From: Opitutaceae bacterium
GTDB lineage: Bacteria; Verrucomicrobiota; Verrucomicrobiia; Opitutales; Opitutaceae
NCBI GenBank assembly: GCA_023269585.1
Contig: JAHFTC010000010.1
Location: 1-57,495, forward strand
DNA: 57,495 bases
Reading direction: 5' to 3'
Shown: positions 3,980 to 41,825 of the stretch, piece after piece
Layout of the letters: every line of letters begins with the position of its first letter
Numbering within the stretch: position 1 is the stretch's first letter
Program-made: the position numbers and the translations under genes
The notes under the pieces: model-generated
Database searches by the model: none
What the model saw: the letters and a program-made list of their open reading frames with translations, nothing else
What the model was told of the DNA's origin: nothing

Positions 3980-6900
3980 CTATCGGCCCGGCAGCACCTC
4001 GCGCAGGACCACGCGAAACTCGTCGAGCTCGTAGGGCTTGGCCACGCGCCCGGCGAAGCCGTAGGCGCGATGGTTGGCCAGCACCGGATCACTCGAGTAC
4101 CCGCTGGAGACGATCGCTTTCACCTGCGGGTCGATCGCACGGATCTTCTCCAGTGCCTCCAACCCGCCCATGCCGCCCGGAACCGTGAGATCCACGATCA
4201 CGAGATCGAAAGGCCGCGCCCCGCCGAACTCCGCGAGATACCGATCCACCGCTTCGCGCCCGTCAGCGGTGACCTCCACCTCACAACCCAACCGGCCCAA
4301 CATCAGCGTCACCATGCGGCGGATCGGGGCCTCGTCGTCCATGAACAGCACGCGGCCGCGGATCTTCCCGCCGCCCACGGGCGCCGCCGGCTCCGGCAAC
4401 GGCAATCCCTGTTCGGCCGCCGGCAGATAGACGTGGAACGTCGTGCCGCGCCCGAGGACGGACTCGACCTGGATGAGTCCCTTGTGCTTGCGCACGATCG
4501 AGTAGACGGTGGCCAAGCCGAGCCCGCTGCCGGTGTGCTTGGTCGTAAAGTACGGTTCGAAGACCCGCTCGATGTGCTCCGGCTTGATTCCCACCCCGGA
4601 GTCGACGACCGACAACCGCACATAGGATCCCGGCGCCAGCGAAGGCTGTTGCAGCGATCCGATCCGCTCGTTCGTGCCCACCACCCGCACGACGCCGCCG
4701 GCGGGCATCGCCTGCACCGCATTGATCACCAGATTCTGGACGACGCGGCCGATCTGCGCCTTGTCCACATCGGCGGGCCACAGGTCATCCGGAAGCGCAA
4801 ACTCCGCCTTCACCCTCGAGCCATGGAGGGCGAAACGCGCGACCTCGGCCACGATCTCCGGCAGACGCACCGCACTGCGGATCGGATCGCCGCCCCGCGA
4901 AAAAGTGAGCAACTGCTGTGTGAGGTCCCTCGCGCGGAGCGCCGCCCGGTCCGCATCCGCCAGCGCCAGTCCGATCTGACTCTCCGGCTCCACATCGAGC
5001 TTCGCCAAGGCGATGTTTCCCATCACCGCGGTGAGGATGTTGTTGAAGTCGTGGGCGATCCCGCCCGCCAGCAGACCGACCGATTCCAGCTTCGACGCCC
5101 GCTGGAGTTCCTGCTCAAGGCGGTCGCGCTCGGTGATGTCGCGGAAGACCAGCACCGTCCCCACCACCGCACTGTCCGCCGCATGGATCGGCGCGCAGCA
5201 CCCCTCCACCAGCCGCAGCGCCCCGGCCCGGCCCGCGAGCACGGTGTGTGCTGGGAGTTCGACGACATTGTCCCCGCGCAGCACCGTCGGGACCGGAACC
5301 GCCGTCGCATCCGCCCCCTCGGCGACGCGCAACGCGCACACCTCGTCGATCGGACGGCCCACCGCCGCATCGCCGTCCCACTGCGTCAAGGCGGCCGCCG
5401 CGGGATTGATGAACTGCACCCGCCCGTCCGTGTCGGTTGTCACCACCCCCTCGGCCATCGCGCGCAGGGTCACCGCCAGCCGCTCCTTTTCCGCCGCCAG
5501 TGCCGCCTCGGCGCGCTTCAGGTCGGTGAGATCGACGAGCACCAGCACGGCCCGCTGGAGATCCGCGCCACCCGCGGCATCGCCGATCCACCACCGCACG
5601 AGCATGTGTCGGCGCCGTCCCGCAAAATCGCGGATGCTGGTCTCCGCCTCGAACGTCCGGCGGCCCTCGGCCACGGCCACGAACACCGCCCGCACCACGT
5701 CGAGCGTCTCCGGCGCGAGCAGCCAACGCCGACGATTCTGCAGGTCCACCCGCGAGGCCGCCCCGAAGACCCGCAGGGCCATCTCGTTGCAATCAAGCAC
5801 CCCCACCAGGCCCGCTCCGCGCCACGCGAGCCGCCGATCCTGTTGCAGTCGCGCCGCCAACTCCGCTCCGTCGGTCGTGCTCAAACCCTGCAACCACCGC
5901 CCGGCCGCGCTGAAATCCATCTCCACCATCGCCACCGGTGTGTGCTGGAACAGCGTGCGATAGCGGAGCTCCGACTGCCGGACCTCCTGTTCCGCCTGCC
6001 GCCGCGCTGTGACGTCCACCACAACCCCCACGAGCTCCCAGCGGTCGAACGCCGCGCGCGTGATCGACGTGCGTTCGTAGAGCCAATACACCTTGCCGCC
6101 CACGTTCGCGCGGAACTCCTGTTCGTAGCCCGGGGCCCCGCCCCGAAGTGCTTCGGCGCTGCGCCGGTTCATCTCGTCGCACTCCGGGACGTTGGCCTCG
6201 TTCCAGTTCAACGCCGTCCGCGGTTCGGGGTCGGCGGGGCCGAAGAGTTTGTGATACAGGCGCGCCCCGGGGACGAAGACCAACCAGTTCAGCGTGCCGT
6301 CGGCCCGTTCGATGACCTCGGCCCGCCAGAGCAGGCAGTCGACCACGTCGAAGATCTTTTCGAGCTGCCGTTGGTGCGCCTGCTTGGCCTCCTCCGCCTC
6401 ATGTCGCCGGGTGACGTCGGTGATCACCCCGACCAACGTCCACTCCCCCGGCCCCTTCGTCTCGATCGTCACCTGCTCGTGCAACCAATGGGCCCGGCCG
6501 CCCCAGTGCGCCTGGAACTCCTGCGTATAGCCGCGCTCGCCGCCCAGGATCGCGCGCTCCGCCGCGCCGTCGATCTGCAGATCCGTCCGCGCGTCGACGA
6601 CGCGCTCCCAGCGGAAAAAGGCCCCGGCTCCCGGCTCCTCCCCGAAGACTTCGCGGAACAGTCGCGACTGCGGGATGAACATGACCCAATGGAGGCGGCC
6701 GTCGCCGCGATCGATGACCCGTCCCTGCCAGAGCATGCACTCGACCACGTCGAGGATGCGCGCGAGCTGCGCCTCGTGCACCCGTTGCGCCTCCTCCACC
6801 TCCCGGCGTGTTGAAATGTCCACCACCACGCCGGCCAACTGCCAGCGGTCGGCACCGGCCGCTGTGATCGTGACCTGCTCGTGCAGCCAGAGGACCCGGC

Positions 6901-18091: not shown

Positions 18092-18129
18092 CCGCCAAAT
18101 ACTCTCACGACCGTGAACTTATTTGGCGG
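18092..18129 (+). repeat. nested 38-bp palindrome, copy 1
   Basis: The outer arms CCGCCAAATA and TATTTGGCGG are perfect 10-bp complements. An inner palindrome TCACG-AC-CGTGA sits at the centre. It is almost identical to the reverse complement of copy 2, 52 bp downstream. Confidence 0.85.
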
Positions 18130-18181: not shown

Positions 18182-18219
18182 CCGCCAAATGTTCTCACGG
18201 TCGTGAGAGTATTTGGCGG
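18182..18219 (-). repeat. nested 38-bp palindrome, copy 2 (inverted)
   Basis: Same design as copy 1 in opposite orientation. The outer arms have one mismatch, the inner core TCACG-GT-CGTGA is intact, and the first 25 bases of its reverse complement equal copy 1. The paired inverted arrangement resembles a bipartite REP/BIME unit or a small non-autonomous element. Confidence 0.85.
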
Positions 18220-35484: not shown

Positions 35485-36945
35485 TCACTGCGCCGCAACC
35501 GCCAGCGTTCGCCGCTCGGCGGGTCGCCCGTTCGCCGCCATTCGCGTGACCTCCGCCGTCGCCGTCTCCGGCGAGACCACGCCGATCGTATAGCGATCCC
35601 CGTTGGCCTCCACCGTGCCGCCTTCGGCGACCTCCACCGGCTCCGACCGTCCGTGGACTCGCAGCACCGCCGCACCGCGCGTCGGGTCGGCGCCTCCCGC
35701 CGTACCGAGCTCGACCGGGACGGTCTCCGCCGGATCGTGCAACGTCGCCCGCACCCGCCGCCCGCCGTCCGCTCCGCGTCCAAAATCCACCGCCACCAAC
35801 TCCAGCCCACTGGCCGGGTCGCGCGCGCCGATCCGCAGCAGCGCCCCGCGGCGGGTGGCCGCCTCCTCGAGCAGCACCGCCGGCGACTCCGCGCCGCCGA
35901 CATGCCCCACCAGACGCCACCGGTACGGCACCCGCCGCACCGCCAGAAGCGCCACCCCAAAGTCCGCGCTCCCCCAACTCTCGTCTTTCTCCAACGCCTC
36001 CACCCGCCCCGAACGCCGCTCCCGGCCGTCCTCCGCCGGCGCCATCGCAAACAACCCGCCACCGCGTCCGCCGGCAGGGCTCCGCCACGGCGGCGGCTCC
36101 CCCGCGCGCGCCGTGGACTCGGCCCCCGTGCCACCCGCCACTGCGACCGCCTCCAGCGTAACCGTGAACCGGCGACTGGCGCGCGTTCCGTGTTGCGCCG
36201 TCCCCCGCGCCGCCTTGTCTTCGCCGGGTTCAGCCGCCACCTCGCGCACCACCAGCGCCGACTCCCCGGCGAGACGGTTCAGAAACCCCCGCAGGCACGC
36301 GGTCGTCCCGACAAACGCCACCCGCATCGCCTGCGTCTCCACGAGGCCGGGCAGGCGCAACGAGCGCGCCGCCGGCCAGACGCACCACTCGCCGTCCCGC
36401 GCCGCCGCCTCCGGCTGCGGGTTCTCGCGCCACACCCCGACCAACCGTCCGGGCTCCGAGGCAAACAACGCCTGCAGCACTCGTTCAAGCGTCCGCTGCT
36501 GTGTTCGGACTGTGAGCACGACGGCCGCCGCCGGGGCGGTCTGCGCGTGTTGTGCAAAGCCGAAGGCCTCGCCCTTGGCCAGCGCCACGCCCGCGGCAGC
36601 CGCCTGCGCCCGCATCCGCTCCCGGAACGCGACCAGCTCCGCGTACGCCTCGAGACGGTCGCCCGGGGCCGCGGTCTCAGCGAAATCTGGCCAGTTCATC
36701 CGCGCCTGCCGCAACTGCTCCCGGGCCCGCTCCAGCGCCACCCCGGCGGCAGCGATCAACTCCGGCCGCGCCTGGGGGGCGAGCAGCTCCATCCGCAGCC
36801 GCGCGCAATCGGCTTCTGCCGCGCGCCAGCGACCCGCCTGCCGCACCGCTTCGATCGCTCCGCCGCCGGCCGCGACCACCAGCACGGCCCCCAGTGCCCA
36901 GAATCCCGGATACACCCGCACCCGCGCGGGAAGACGCAGACTCAT
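35485..36945 (-). CDS. Amuc_1100-like pilus-associated protein (possible fusion with Amuc_1099-like region)
   Basis: 486 residues. An N-terminal membrane helix (YPGFWALGAVLVVAAGGGAIEA) is followed by a long coiled-coil stretch (~35-110) and a ferredoxin-like periplasmic half (~150-290), the PilO-like plan of Amuc_1100, the Akkermansia surface protein. A Gly/Arg-rich linker leads to a second beta-rich part (~320-486: VPYRWRLVGHVGG..., VEANGDRYTIGVVSPETA), which may be the Amuc_1099-type component joined here. Family assignment rests mainly on gene order and topology. The start overlaps the pilM-like stop by four bases (ATGA). Confidence 0.65.
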   Translation of the reverse strand: MSLRLPARVRVYPGFWALGAVLVVAAGGGAIEAVRQAGRWRAAEADCARLRMELLAPQARPELIAAAGVALERAREQLRQARMNWPDFAETAAPGDRLEAYAELVAFRERMRAQAAAAGVALAKGEAFGFAQHAQTAPAAAVVLTVRTQQRTLERVLQALFASEPGRLVGVWRENPQPEAAARDGEWCVWPAARSLRLPGLVETQAMRVAFVGTTACLRGFLNRLAGESALVVREVAAEPGEDKAARGTAQHGTRASRRFTVTLEAVAVAGGTGAESTARAGEPPPWRSPAGGRGGGLFAMAPAEDGRERRSGRVEALEKDESWGSADFGVALLAVRRVPYRWRLVGHVGGAESPAVLLEEAATRRGALLRIGARDPASGLELVAVDFGRGADGGRRVRATLHDPAETVPVELGTAGGADPTRGAAVLRVHGRSEPVEVAEGGTVEANGDRYTIGVVSPETATAEVTRMAANGRPAERRTLAVAAQ

Positions 36946-38504
36946 GGCCGCGCCTCCGGCTGGAGCACCAGCACGCAGCTGAACCGCAGCAGCCCGGATT
37001 CGCTCGGTTCGAACCGTTCCTCCTCGACCGCCGCCACCCCCTCCGCCGCCGCCCACTCGCGCAACAGCCCGCGCACCTGATCCAGCCCGCGGCGGCCGTC
37101 TCCACCAGGATCGAGCGCGCAACCGCCGATCATCAGCCGGTGCGCGACGCTCGCCGGGCTGCCGGCGGCCCCGTTGTGCCCGGGCCAAGACCCCGCCACG
37201 GCGCGCGCCGCCTCGCCGGCCGGTTCCAGGCGCTCGAGCCAGATGTCCCCGTGGCGCGCCAGGCGCGCCTCCTGTTCGCCCAGCCAGGTCGCCCAGCCGG
37301 TGCGCACCCGCTCCAGTTCCGTCAGCACCGCCAACTCGCGTTGACAAGTTTCCAGTTCGCGCTGCCGCTCCGCCAACAGGCGCTGCGCTGCGCGCCACGG
37401 CTCCAGCTCGCGCCCGAGCGCCACCGCCTGCGCCTCGCGGCTCCCGACCGCGGATCGCAGCCCCCACACCGTCGCGGCCGCCGTCGCCGCAGCAACCCCG
37501 AGGGCCACCAGCCAACGCCCGCGGTTGCGCCGAAAGACATTCTCGCGCTGCCGCGCCTCCGGCAGAAGGTTGACCGCCCCGCCGCCCCGCGCCGCGACCG
37601 CGAGCGCCGTTCCCACCACCGCACCGAATTGGTGGGACAACGCCGCCGCCCCGCTGGCCGAACGGCCGATCCGCACCCGGCGCAGCGCGTCGAAACGCTC
37701 CACCCGTGCCGCCGCGCCAAGGACACAACGTTCAACCGCTTCGGGATCCAGCGCGTCCGGCCCGCCGAGCAGCAACACCGGCGGTGGCGCCGTCTCCTCG
37801 GCACCGCGCCCTTCCTCCGCCAGACGCAGCATCTCCGCGCCAAGCCGGCGCACGCGCAGATCGTCGCCGCTCACCGTGGCGTCGTTCCCGCTCGGCTCCC
37901 CCGGTCCCGCCGGAACCGGGGCCATCGCCGGCAAACCGATCAGGCGCACCGCTGCCATGTCGCCACCGCACCGCACCAGCAGCGCGGTGGACTGCTCCAC
38001 CTCCGCCAGGATCGCGCCACGCTGCTCCGGATAGTTGTGCGCCAGCGCCAAGCTCAGCGCCGCCGCTCGCGGCACGATCGCGTCCAGGCGCACACCTGCG
38101 GCCGCCGCCTCGGCCGCGAACGTCTCCGCCGCCTCACCCTTCATCGCCGAAAGCTGGACCCGTCGCCCCCCGTCTCCGCTGGGCATCCAATCCCAGCACA
38201 ACTCTTCGAGCGGCCGTGGGATCGCTTGCGCCGCCTCGAAGCGCACCACCCGTTCCTGCTGCGCCCGCGCGACCGCCGGCAGCTCGATGAGCTTCGTCAA
38301 CGTGAGATTGGGCGCCGGGGAAGCCGCGAATCGCGTACCGTGGCGCAGGGTGTCCGGTAGCTCCGGCCACTGCGCGCCCTCGTCGGTGCGCCGCGGCAGC
38401 AGGGCGTACTCCTCCAGCATCAGCTCGCCATCGGCCGCGGGGGTGAACGCTCCGACAACGCTCCGACTGGTGCCGCACTCGATCGCGACAATTCGGGCTC
38501 GCAT
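36942..38504 (-). CDS. PilM-like pilus ATPase-fold protein fused to PilN-like region (Amuc_1101-like)
   Basis: 520 residues. The N-terminal ~340 residues have the actin/FtsA-like PilM fold: IVAIECGTSRSVVGAF at the start, LTLTKLIELPAV, and a central region with VLLLGGPDALDP. After NLLPEARQRENVFRRNRGRW, itself a PilN-type cytosolic motif, comes a membrane helix (~350-368), a coiled coil (~375-420) and a periplasmic domain. PilM and PilN are separate proteins in proteobacteria; here they are joined. ATG 38502-38504. It is the first gene of the pilus operon; the upstream 680 bp hold three inverted repeats. Confidence 0.78.
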   Translation of the reverse strand: MRARIVAIECGTSRSVVGAFTPAADGELMLEEYALLPRRTDEGAQWPELPDTLRHGTRFAASPAPNLTLTKLIELPAVARAQQERVVRFEAAQAIPRPLEELCWDWMPSGDGGRRVQLSAMKGEAAETFAAEAAAAGVRLDAIVPRAAALSLALAHNYPEQRGAILAEVEQSTALLVRCGGDMAAVRLIGLPAMAPVPAGPGEPSGNDATVSGDDLRVRRLGAEMLRLAEEGRGAEETAPPPVLLLGGPDALDPEAVERCVLGAAARVERFDALRRVRIGRSASGAAALSHQFGAVVGTALAVAARGGGAVNLLPEARQRENVFRRNRGRWLVALGVAAATAAATVWGLRSAVGSREAQAVALGRELEPWRAAQRLLAERQRELETCQRELAVLTELERVRTGWATWLGEQEARLARHGDIWLERLEPAGEAARAVAGSWPGHNGAAGSPASVAHRLMIGGCALDPGGDGRRGLDQVRGLLREWAAAEGVAAVEEERFEPSESGLLRFSCVLVLQPEARP

Positions 38505-38627: not shown

Positions 38628-38675
38628 AAGAACGCAGATCCCCGTCCGACCGCGACACGATTCTGCGTCTTTCTT
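38628..38675. repeat. ~45-bp inverted repeat with conserved core, copy A
   Basis: Left arm ends ACGCAGA, core CGTCCGACCGCGACAC, right arm TTCTGCGTCTT. The arms are complementary apart from one slipped base. Confidence 0.8.
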
Positions 38676-38757
38676 CACCTGCCCCCGTGGTGCGCCCGGC
38701 GTGACCGCGCATTCCCCGCCGAACGCCCTTACGCCTTGCGCTCATCCCCCCTGGCCC

Positions 38758-38802
38758 AAAGACGCAAAAGTTAGTCCGACCGCGACACGGTTTTGCGTCT
38801 TC
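38758..38802. repeat. ~45-bp inverted repeat with conserved core, copy B
   Basis: Perfect 11-bp arms AAGACGCAAAA / TTTTGCGTCTT around a core containing GTCCGACCGCGACAC. Confidence 0.85.
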
Positions 38803-38923
38803 GCGCCCAGGGCCCGGCGTCGCCCACGCTCGTCTCCGGGAGTCCCTAACGGTGCCCCCGCGGGCCGCTCGCCCGCCGCCACTTCGCCACCCGCTACGGC
38901 TCCCGCGCGCACCACTTCTCCGA

Positions 38924-38969
38924 AAAAGACGCAAATCTTCGTCCGACCGCGACAGAGAGTTGCGTCTTT
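38924..38969. repeat. ~45-bp inverted repeat with conserved core, copy C
   Basis: Perfect 10-bp arms AAAGACGCAA / TTGCGTCTTT around a core containing CGTCCGACCGCGACA. Confidence 0.85.
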
Positions 38970-39188: not shown

Positions 39189-41825
39189 ATGCAGACTTCG
39201 AACCCGCCCTCCGCCGACTACAACTTCACCGAGATCGAACCGCGCTGGCAGCGCGTGTGGGACGAGCTCAAGCCGCAGCGCGCCCTCACCGGCGACGCGC
39301 GTCCGAAGTACTACATCCTCGACATGTTCCCGTACCCCTCGGGCGCCGGCCTCCACCTCGGGCACTGCGAGAACTACGCGATCACCGACATCATGGCCCG
39401 CTACAAGCGCGCCAAGGGTTTCAACGTCCTCTACCCCATCGGCTGGGACGCCTTCGGCCTGCCCACCGAAAACTACGCCGTCAAAACCGGTCGCCACCCC
39501 GCCGACGTTACCCTCGAAAACGTCGCCACCTTCCGCCGCCAACTGAAGTCCTTCGGCGTCTCCTACGACTTCGAACGCGAGGTCGACACCACCGACCCGA
39601 AGTACTTCCGCTGGACGCAGTGGATCTGGCTCCAGCTCTTCAAGAAGGGCCTCGCCTACGTCGAGGAAAAGCCCGTGTGGTGGTGCCCGGCACTCGGCAC
39701 CGTGCTCGCCAACGAGGAGGTGATCGACGGCCTGTCCGAAGTCGGCAAACACCCGGTCGAGCGTCGCCCGCTCCGCCAGTGGGTGTTGCGCATCACCGCC
39801 TACGCCGACCGCCTGCTCGCCGACCTCAAGGACCTCGACTGGCCCGACTCCACGAAGCGAATGCAGGAAGCCTGGATCGGCCGCAGCGAGGGCAGCGAGG
39901 TCGAGTTCGACCTCCCGTCGCTCCCGGGCGAACGGCTCCGCATTTTCACCACGCGCGTCGACACCATCTACGGCGCGACCTACATGGTCATCGCGCCCGA
40001 GCACGCGCTCGCTGCGAAGCTCACCACGCCGGCCCAGAAGGCCGCGGTCGACGCCTACGTGAAGGCCACCGCCTCCAAGAGCGACCTCGAGCGCACCGAG
40101 CTGGCCAAGGACAAGACCGGCGTCTTCACCGGCTCCTACGCCCTCAACCCCGCCACCGGCACGCAGATCCCCGTCTGGATCGCCGACTACGTCCTCGCGA
40201 GCTACGGCACCGGCGCGATCATGGCCGTGCCCGCGCACGACGAGCGCGACTTCGCGTTCGCCCAGAAGTTCGACCTCCCGATCCCGCAGGTCATCGCCCC
40301 GGCCGACGGCTCGACCGTGGAGTTGCCGTTCTGCGACAAGGGCGGCGAGGTAAAGCTCGTCAACTCCGCCGACTGCAACGGCCTCACGCCCGCACAGGCC
40401 AAGGACAAACTCGACGCCCGCTTCGGCGCCGAGAAACGCGGCAAGGGCACCGTGCAGTTCAAGCTCCGCGACTGGCTCTTCTCCCGCCAGCGCTACTGGG
40501 GCGAGCCCTTCCCGATCGTCTGGGTCGGCGAGGCCGACTACCGCGCCACCGTCGCCAGCGGCGCCCAGCTGCCCCAGCTCCCGGCCGAGCCGGTCACTTG
40601 TGTGATCAACGGCGAAACACGTTACGCCCTCCCGCTGCCCGAGACCGCGCTGCCGCTGCAGCTCCCGATCGTGAAGAGCTACCAGCCCACCGGCACCGGC
40701 GAGAGCCCGCTGGCCTCGATGCCCGAGTGGATCGACATCTGGTACAACCCGGCCACCGGCGAGTCCGTGCCCTCCACCGAGCCGCGCCCCGCCGGTGCGC
40801 TCTGGATCCGCGGTCGCCGCGAGTCCAACACCATGCCGCAGTGGGCTGGCTCCTGCTGGTACTACCTGCGCTACACCGACACCCAGAACGCCACCGCCCT
40901 CGCCTCGCCCGAGGCGCTGAACTACTGGGGCGTGCCCGACCTCTACGTCGGCGGTGCCGAGCACGCCGTGCTCCACCTCCTGTACGCGCGTTTCTGGCAC
41001 AAAGTGCTCTTCGACATCGGCGCCGTGCCGACCCACGAACCGTTCACCAAGCTCTTCCACCAGGGCATCATCCTTGGCGAGGACGGTGAAAAGATGTCCA
41101 AGAGCCGCGGCAACGTCGCCAACCCCGACGCCATCATCGCCGACTACGGCACCGACACCCTGCGCCTCTACCTCATGTTCCTCGGACCGCTCGAGGCGAT
41201 GAAGCCGTGGAGCCCGAAGAACATCGAGGGCGTGCACCGTTTCCTCCGCAACCTCTGGCGCGAAGTCGTCGCCGAGGACGGCCAGCTGAATCCGAAGATT
41301 GTCGACGGCCCCGAGCCCGACGCCGAGACCGAGAAACTCCTCCACGCCACGATCAAGAAGGTCGGCGAGGACATCGAGGGACTGCGCTACAACACCGCGA
41401 TCCCGCAGATGATGATTCTGCGTAGCCAGATTCAGAAGGCAGCCCAGGTTTCGCGCAACACCCTCAAGGCGTTCGTGCAGATCCTCCAGCCCTTCGCCCC
41501 GCACCTCGCGCACGAGCTCTGGGCCCGCCTGCACTCCGTGTCCGGAACTGTAGCCGGGGGCGGTGACCCCGGCTCCGTCCCCCCGCTGCATACAGCCCCG
41601 TGGCCCGTCGCCGACGAATCGAAGCTCGTCTCCGACACCATGAAGGTGGTGGTGCAGGTGAACGGCAAACTCCGCGGCGAGTTGATCCTCCCGAAGAGCG
41701 CCGACCAAGCCGCCGCCGAGAAAGCCGCCCTCGAACTCCCGAAGGTGCAGGAGTTCACCGCCGGCAAACAGGTCCGCAAAGTGATCTTCGTCCCCGGCCG
41801 CATCCTGAACCTCGTCGTCGGCTGA
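39189..41825 (+). CDS. leuS: leucyl-tRNA synthetase
   Basis: 878 residues, class I synthetase attaching leucine to tRNA-Leu. The HIGH-type motif is HLGH at 56-59 (within PYPSGAGLHLGH), and KMSKS is at 635-639. The CP1 editing domain is present, with TTRVDTIYGATY and AIMAVPAHDERD. A tRNA-binding C-terminal domain completes a normal bacterial length. ATG 39189 gives the usual short N-terminus before YNFTEIEPRWQ. A terminator follows 63 bp after the stop. Confidence 0.97.
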   Translation: MQTSNPPSADYNFTEIEPRWQRVWDELKPQRALTGDARPKYYILDMFPYPSGAGLHLGHCENYAITDIMARYKRAKGFNVLYPIGWDAFGLPTENYAVKTGRHPADVTLENVATFRRQLKSFGVSYDFEREVDTTDPKYFRWTQWIWLQLFKKGLAYVEEKPVWWCPALGTVLANEEVIDGLSEVGKHPVERRPLRQWVLRITAYADRLLADLKDLDWPDSTKRMQEAWIGRSEGSEVEFDLPSLPGERLRIFTTRVDTIYGATYMVIAPEHALAAKLTTPAQKAAVDAYVKATASKSDLERTELAKDKTGVFTGSYALNPATGTQIPVWIADYVLASYGTGAIMAVPAHDERDFAFAQKFDLPIPQVIAPADGSTVELPFCDKGGEVKLVNSADCNGLTPAQAKDKLDARFGAEKRGKGTVQFKLRDWLFSRQRYWGEPFPIVWVGEADYRATVASGAQLPQLPAEPVTCVINGETRYALPLPETALPLQLPIVKSYQPTGTGESPLASMPEWIDIWYNPATGESVPSTEPRPAGALWIRGRRESNTMPQWAGSCWYYLRYTDTQNATALASPEALNYWGVPDLYVGGAEHAVLHLLYARFWHKVLFDIGAVPTHEPFTKLFHQGIILGEDGEKMSKSRGNVANPDAIIADYGTDTLRLYLMFLGPLEAMKPWSPKNIEGVHRFLRNLWREVVAEDGQLNPKIVDGPEPDAETEKLLHATIKKVGEDIEGLRYNTAIPQMMILRSQIQKAAQVSRNTLKAFVQILQPFAPHLAHELWARLHSVSGTVAGGGDPGSVPPLHTAPWPVADESKLVSDTMKVVVQVNGKLRGELILPKSADQAAAEKAALELPKVQEFTAGKQVRKVIFVPGRILNLVVG

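Follow-up and report, generated by a model that had tools for sequence, protein, structure and literature searches.

The window, by which we mean the whole stretch of 57,495 nucleotides analysed here, carries three palindromes between 38.6 and 39.0 kb (Table 1). They lie in an intergenic region that has leuS, which starts at 39189 and was confirmed by Pfam as encoding leucyl-tRNA synthetase, on one side and a divergent gene of the minus strand on the other. That second gene (36942-38504, start near 38.5 kb) had been labelled part of a pilus operon, which stays a provisional assignment; it has no Pfam match at E 0.001. Each palindrome is 39 bp long and follows the plan GACGCA-N7-GTCCGACCGCGACA-N6-TGCGTC, and the three are direct repeats with start-to-start distances of 130 and 167. 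All copies share one and the same 14-bp core, GTCCGACCGCGACA, which does not recur in the window at zero or one mismatch. The original prediction of three inverted-repeat copies with a nearly invariant core is thus confirmed, while its impression that the spacers are partly duplicated is not, as we saw no convincing spacer repeat outside the elements.

A dispersed palindrome family

A genome-wide search, which had been proposed together with the original prediction, showed that this element, here called family A, is a dispersed family that goes beyond a local triplication. Allowing at most 3 mismatches to the pattern given above, we counted 25 copies in the window's own genome (G000), 17 in the congener G001 and none in 55 other genomes of the order, namely a second congener (G002) and 54 more. 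The reversed control pattern gave zero matches, and of 84,980 species genomes scanned for the exact pattern only that of the congener, Verrucomicrobia bacterium WAS_Bin_16, contained it. The census was based on such patterns and on sampled sequence, some 0.79 Mb from G000 and 0.75 Mb from G001. At the site of the window's triplet, the three copies of G000 compare with two in G001, and no palindrome copies were found upstream of leuS in G002.

Among 42 distinct family-A copies the core and the outer six bases on each side are almost invariant, whereas positions 7 and 9-13 vary, with paired counts equal to the shuffled expectation. The earlier claim that the arms are kept as complements therefore stands for the outer 6 bp only, and co-variation, being absent from the inner stem, had to be rejected as hairpin evidence for family A. 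Fixed outer arms and a fixed core around an inner stem that does not co-vary argue for a bipartite protein site, not a hairpin maintained by compensation, and judged from conservation the family-A element is a bipartite palindromic site of outer arms and core. In the CGTTTA family co-variation is partial, and may in part reflect differences between genomes. Three 40-bp elements of G000 (C40:503-542, C114:46007-46046 and C201:35488-35627) have the family-A arms (GACGCA..TGCGTC) around other cores, and their arms and cores look as if recombined.

Table 1. Palindromes of the window, the family-A partner gene and the composite pairs
Feature	Position	Strand	Basis or remarks
Family-A palindrome, copy 1 (AACGCAGATCCCCGTCCGACCGCGACACGATTCTGCGTC)	38631..38669	+	pattern and genome-wide family
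Family-A palindrome, copy 2 (GACGCAAAAGTTAGTCCGACCGCGACACGGTTTTGCGTC)	38761..38799	+	pattern and genome-wide family
Family-A palindrome, copy 3 (GACGCAAATCTTCGTCCGACCGCGACAGAGAGTTGCGTC)	38928..38966	+	pattern and genome-wide family
Second-family palindrome, left half of inverted pair (CGCCAAATACTCTCACGACCGTGAACTTATTTGGCG)	18093..18128	+	
Second-family palindrome, right half (CGCCAAATGTTCTCACGGTCGTGAGAGTATTTGGCG on +)	18183..18218	-	90 bp from left half
Family-A partner gene	G000:C203:5583-6329		other contig of the window's genome; bracketed by family-A copies
Five composite pairs	L178, L210, L214, L221, L226		G000 contigs C47, C55, C93, C127, C190

A PaaX-like gene bracketed by palindromes

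In both carriers of family A one gene is bracketed by a cluster of family-A copies (on contig C203 of G000 and contig C77 of G001). Its product in G000 has 249 aa and matches PaaX_M and a Cas2-like domain (8e-22), with CRISPR_Cas2 just above and PaaX_C just below the respective cut-off. The architecture of the partner protein is a winged helix, a Cas2-like domain and PaaX_C, and scores of 51-65 bits, against a cut-off of 264.55 for the PaaX equivalog TIGR02277, fall far short of the canonical level. Genes with PaaX_M are present in only 8 of 57 related genomes, with seven in G000 and three each in G001 and G002. The G001 family-A gene (L051 6667-7370) has a frameshift after the Cas2-like domain, and given this lesion the 17 copies of that genome may be without an active partner. 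An AlphaFold model of the N-terminal part of the G001 homologue, computed without an alignment, reached a pLDDT of 40 and was unusable.

A palindrome scan of the loci showed that nearly every PaaX-like paralogue has its own palindrome sequence (for example CTCAAAACCATGTTCCGGTCGGAACATGGTTTTGAG, CACATTTTCGTGATACGGTCGTATCAC.., ACACATTCCTGTCCCGATCGGGACAGGAATGTGT, GCCCATTTTGTGTTACGACCGTAACAC.. and AACCGTTTACCCTCACGGTCGTGAGGGTAAACGGTT), closely similar palindromes being common to two of the G000 paralogues. At the genus and family level, same-family copies of 34-39 bp flank the gene on both sides at 13 of 16 loci; the exceptions have an upstream pair only (L118), an upstream copy only (L124) or a downstream copy only (L125). 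The upstream copy begins about 320-332 bp ahead of the Cas2-like domain, which places it ~47-77 bp ahead of the likely start codon, and the downstream copy follows the stop codon at a distance of between 13 bp and a few hundred bp.

Relatives of the PaaX-like proteins were detected by profile search in 26 of 387 Verrucomicrobiota genomes, and the phylum-level set comprises 26 further loci from genomes of 48-73% G+C. At 15 of these 26 loci the gene stands between two similar palindromes (at least 20/30) separated by 780-1050 bp, where the threshold of 20/30 was lowered from 22/30 after the loci had been seen. Taken over the Verrucomicrobiota, such a pair usually surrounds the genes of this clade, with a typical separation of some 0.85-1.0 kb. 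As background, a 1.34 Mb sample of G000 and G001 has four pairs at that spacing that reach 20/30 and none that reaches 21/30, and at 22/30 the comparison is 11 of 26 loci against 0 in the same 1.34 Mb. None of 12 control loci with a Y1 transposase has a bracketing palindrome pair. About a third of the phylum-wide loci have no detectable pair. L140, L143 and L153 have perfect, identical pairs of 34-mers. The genomes of genus g112 share a syntenic gene locus, yet its two palindromes have switched jointly, from AACAAATAAGTTCACG.. to TCATCTAATACCCACG... The gene and its palindromes are thus a linked, vertically held unit, as are RAYTs. Beyond the Verrucomicrobiota our survey covered viral contigs and plasmids; the viral contigs searched contained no relative, and the PaaX matches on plasmids are useful as negative controls only.

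All 43 proteins of this clade that were checked (16/16 at the genus and family level and 27/27 at the phylum level) have [FY]D at the position of the Cas2 active-site Asp, followed by an LQxS motif, mostly LQxSVW. The conserved Asp would correspond to the Cas2 catalytic residue, as indicated by the ungapped start of the Pfam match and general knowledge of Cas2. In five ordinary PaaX regulators of actinobacterial plasmids this position is taken by Y, S, Q, S or T, and their loci, three of which adjoin aromatic-compound genes, show no bracketing palindrome pair, and the two PaaX-family sequences from the PDB also lack the Asp. In an approximate tree of a profile-selected set, the palindrome-associated proteins group apart from the PaaX controls with a support of 0.94.

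Placement, pairing and turnover of the copies

Where tested, the palindrome family of a gene also has copies elsewhere in the same genome. G005 has seven, two of them beside the gene; the other five sit in unrelated flanks and are nearly identical over 36-38 bp. There are 15 in G250, from another family of the phylum, and four in G291. The core TCACGACCGTGA, common to two families, occurs 61 times in G000, 17 times in G001 and 38 times in G002, against 0, 0 and 1 control matches, respectively. The possibility raised at the outset, that copies are scattered at random, inside genes as well, and without complementary arms, does not describe what we found. Of 102 elements in 0.79 Mb of G000, with genes called by a home-made codon model, 97 are intergenic, 3 are at the edge of a contig and 2, chance palindromes that belong to none of the families, are in genes. 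The 97 intergenic elements are divided among codirectional, divergent and convergent gaps as 52, 26 and 19, which tracks the 88, 38 and 24 kb of intergenic bases of each type. This placement is REP-like and unlike that of promoter operators, as there is no promoter bias.

Many copies form REPIN-like inverted pairs 74-90 bp apart. One such pair, of a second family, lies in the window itself; the gene-linked copies of this family are found beside a PaaX-like gene of the congener (G001:C60), and the family looks orphan in G000, whose seven PaaX-like genes carry other palindromes. The 74-75 bp class includes a composite unit of ~111 bp at five sites, two of which are inverted as a whole. The five pairs have a common spacer of 38-39 bp, with a spacer similarity of 118 against a maximum of 83 in 300 shuffles, and an IHF-like motif stands at one fixed offset in 5/5 spacers, with 0-2 mismatches from WATCAANNNNTTR. 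The IHF-containing BIMEs (RIB/RIP) of E. coli are likewise palindrome pairs with an IHF site in between, although both the repeats and the partner protein are different here.

At orthologous sites of G000 and G001 a palindrome is mostly present in both genomes, though the flanking intergenic DNA is barely alignable, and the palindromes differ in how many there are, in orientation, in family or in variant. One site shows a joint change of the two arms (GACCG..CGGTC versus GACAG..CTGTC), and at two sites G001 has a PaaX-like gene where G000 has palindromes only (L119 versus L227 and L118 versus L228). Around the family-A gene, the homology of G000 and G001 sets in precisely at the edge of the upstream palindrome. 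Two G000 positions are empty in G001, that of a single copy (L219 15793) and that of the L205 pair, but neither was accepted as a precise empty site because the gaps are not palindrome-sized; a candidate at the C110 unit was rejected because its flanks are rearranged in G001 and G002. The orthologous-site comparison, between intergenic regions that are strongly diverged, revealed neither a clean empty site for one palindrome nor a target duplication. Two side observations concern L197. At its position 4699 and at L232 near 8022, two families with the same core occupy one orthologous site, with CCAAATA arms in G000 and CCGTTTA-type arms in G001. In the same locus (L197 12888-14432, contig C75), a stretch of ~1.5 kb between two different palindromes of G000, whose reading frame opens like that of a lipoprotein, is missing from the orthologous site of G001.

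Interpretation and alternative explanations

The palindromes form dispersed families, each tied to a Cas2-domain gene that is usually bracketed by its own palindrome and keeps the Asp. We think it reasonably probable that this is a REP/REPIN-like repeat system in which a Cas2-domain protein is the partner in place of a RAYT, with the window's element as a non-autonomous representative of one REP-like, extragenic palindrome family. We infer that the PaaX-like protein binds its palindrome, regulates itself and mobilises or homogenises the copies. It would bind as a symmetric dimer, with the winged helices contacting the family-specific outer arms and the Cas2-like dimer sitting at the central CGRYCG-type core, and could repress its own gene via the upstream copy. 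It might also nick, copy or recombine the palindromes, as single copies or inverted pairs, whereby a family would spread and stay uniform within a genome, as is thought for RAYTs acting on REPINs. Of the three options first considered (hairpin with a protein-binding site, transposon end, small structured RNA), this favours a protein-linked palindrome resembling a transposon end, as the cognate palindromes bracket a gene for a winged-helix and Cas2-like protein.

Several points speak against mobilisation. The comparison of G000 and G001 caught no transposition event, and the occupation of most orthologous sites in both genomes also suits a conserved function. The upstream copy at a fixed 47-77 bp is what is expected of an autorepressor operator, and we know of no strand-transfer chemistry for Cas2. 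The stronger proposal of a self-contained class of mobile palindromes, in which a Cas2-domain nuclease without Cas1 recognises, cuts and copies palindromes of 34-39 bp, is therefore put forward tentatively, with the odds somewhat against it.

The most serious alternative is a regulon, with the PaaX-like proteins as ordinary transcription factors and the scattered palindromes as operators that co-evolve with them. PaaX is a regulator family, the palindrome is at a fixed distance upstream of the gene, most positions are shared by G000 and G001, with joint changes in the two arms, and the lack of inner co-variation in family A is as for a dimer site on double-stranded DNA. However, the number of copies scales with intergenic length and shows no surplus ahead of genes (19 of 97 are between convergent genes), and a second copy normally lies just past the stop codon. 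Inverted pairs of fixed spacing and a repeated composite unit are also not accounted for, nor are Cas2 active-site residues that are kept in all these proteins and lost in ordinary PaaX. We consider a regulon alone rather unlikely, and regulation and mobilisation could both hold. Sites for chromosome organisation or maintenance (loop anchors or replication marks), bound by the Cas2-domain protein and immobile, would be extragenic, dispersed and positionally kept as observed, and could explain the IHF-like motif at one place in the five pair spacers. This is improbable in view of seven paralogues in one genome, most with a different palindrome, of palindromes exchanged together at a syntenic gene locus, and of near-identical G005 copies with unrelated flanks.

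A structured RNA, riboswitch or bidirectional terminator could be suspected from the A-rich and T-rich ends and from the folding of each window copy, which on both strands is stronger than that of dinucleotide shuffles (z -2.6 to -4.6). It is very improbable, since the window element matches no Rfam family, the inner stem does not co-vary, and copies are found alike in divergent, codirectional and convergent gaps, whatever their orientation to genes. Classical REPs or MITEs moved by a RAYT or another Y1/IS200 transposase of the genome are hardly credible and were rejected, for in spite of the REP/REPIN-like size and pairing and 11 Y1_Tnp matches in G000, no family-A copy is within 12 kb of any of these, ten of the 11 have none on the same contig, there is no unpaired GTAG or CGTC tag, and it is the Cas2-like gene that is bracketed.

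The REP-like reading with a Cas2-domain partner has to be set against the systems already described. To our knowledge, the RAYT transposase is the only dedicated partner of REP-type palindromes in bacteria. The present system resembles RAYT-REPIN in its short, dispersed extragenic palindromes, often in inverted pairs and in lineage-specific families, and in a partner gene bracketed by its own repeats. It differs in that the partner matches PaaX_M and CRISPR_Cas2 and not the HUH/Y1 transposase (PF01797), in that the palindromes of 34-39 bp are symmetric to the end with no GTAG when the copies are read directly, and in having tens of copies where RAYT-REPIN systems have hundreds. CGTC-tagged REPs, reported without a dedicated transposase, have stems of 8-9 bp, loops of 4-5 nt and an unpaired CGTC tag (PMC3733652). 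They share with our families the dispersed, mostly paired palindromes and the lack of a RAYT, however the GCGTC of family A is inside the paired arm, and the arms of the other families differ and are tag-free. The domains PF20803 and PF08223 (PaaX_M and PaaX_C) are those of PaaX repressors, but the Asp and the bracketing palindromes are absent from the five ordinary PaaX, and the copies are not concentrated at promoters. Like CRISPR Cas2, the protein has the active-site Asp and an LQxSVW-like motif, and CRISPR repeats are of similar length and partly palindromic; unlike in CRISPR adaptation, there is no repeat-spacer array but dispersed single copies or pairs at irregular spacing, and the Cas2-like domain is fused to an N-terminal DNA-binding region and PaaX_C.

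RAYT-REPIN, CGTC-tagged REPs, canonical PaaX and CRISPR adaptation thus each have a defining feature that this system lacks, though the repeats alone look REP-like. No text containing both PaaX and Cas2 was found in a literature that was largely open-access and exclusive of preprints, and as far as their titles and abstracts tell, the few that mention PaaX along with palindromic repeats or transposition do not describe it. It looks like an undescribed system for spreading or managing repeats.

The place of the RAYT would then be filled, across a phylum, by a protein that is not homologous to it and that has a Cas2-like domain complete with the catalytic residue. The families, at about one palindrome sequence for each paralogue, provide matched protein-DNA pairs for binding and nuclease tests. 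The findings also suggest that some annotations as 'PaaX family regulator' may hide a different function, and they bear on the roles of Cas2 domains outside CRISPR. If the proposal is true, Cas2-driven repeats would represent a second route, without an HUH enzyme, to the REP/RAYT lifestyle, one that may be related to the way in which CRISPR repeats and Cas2 joined.
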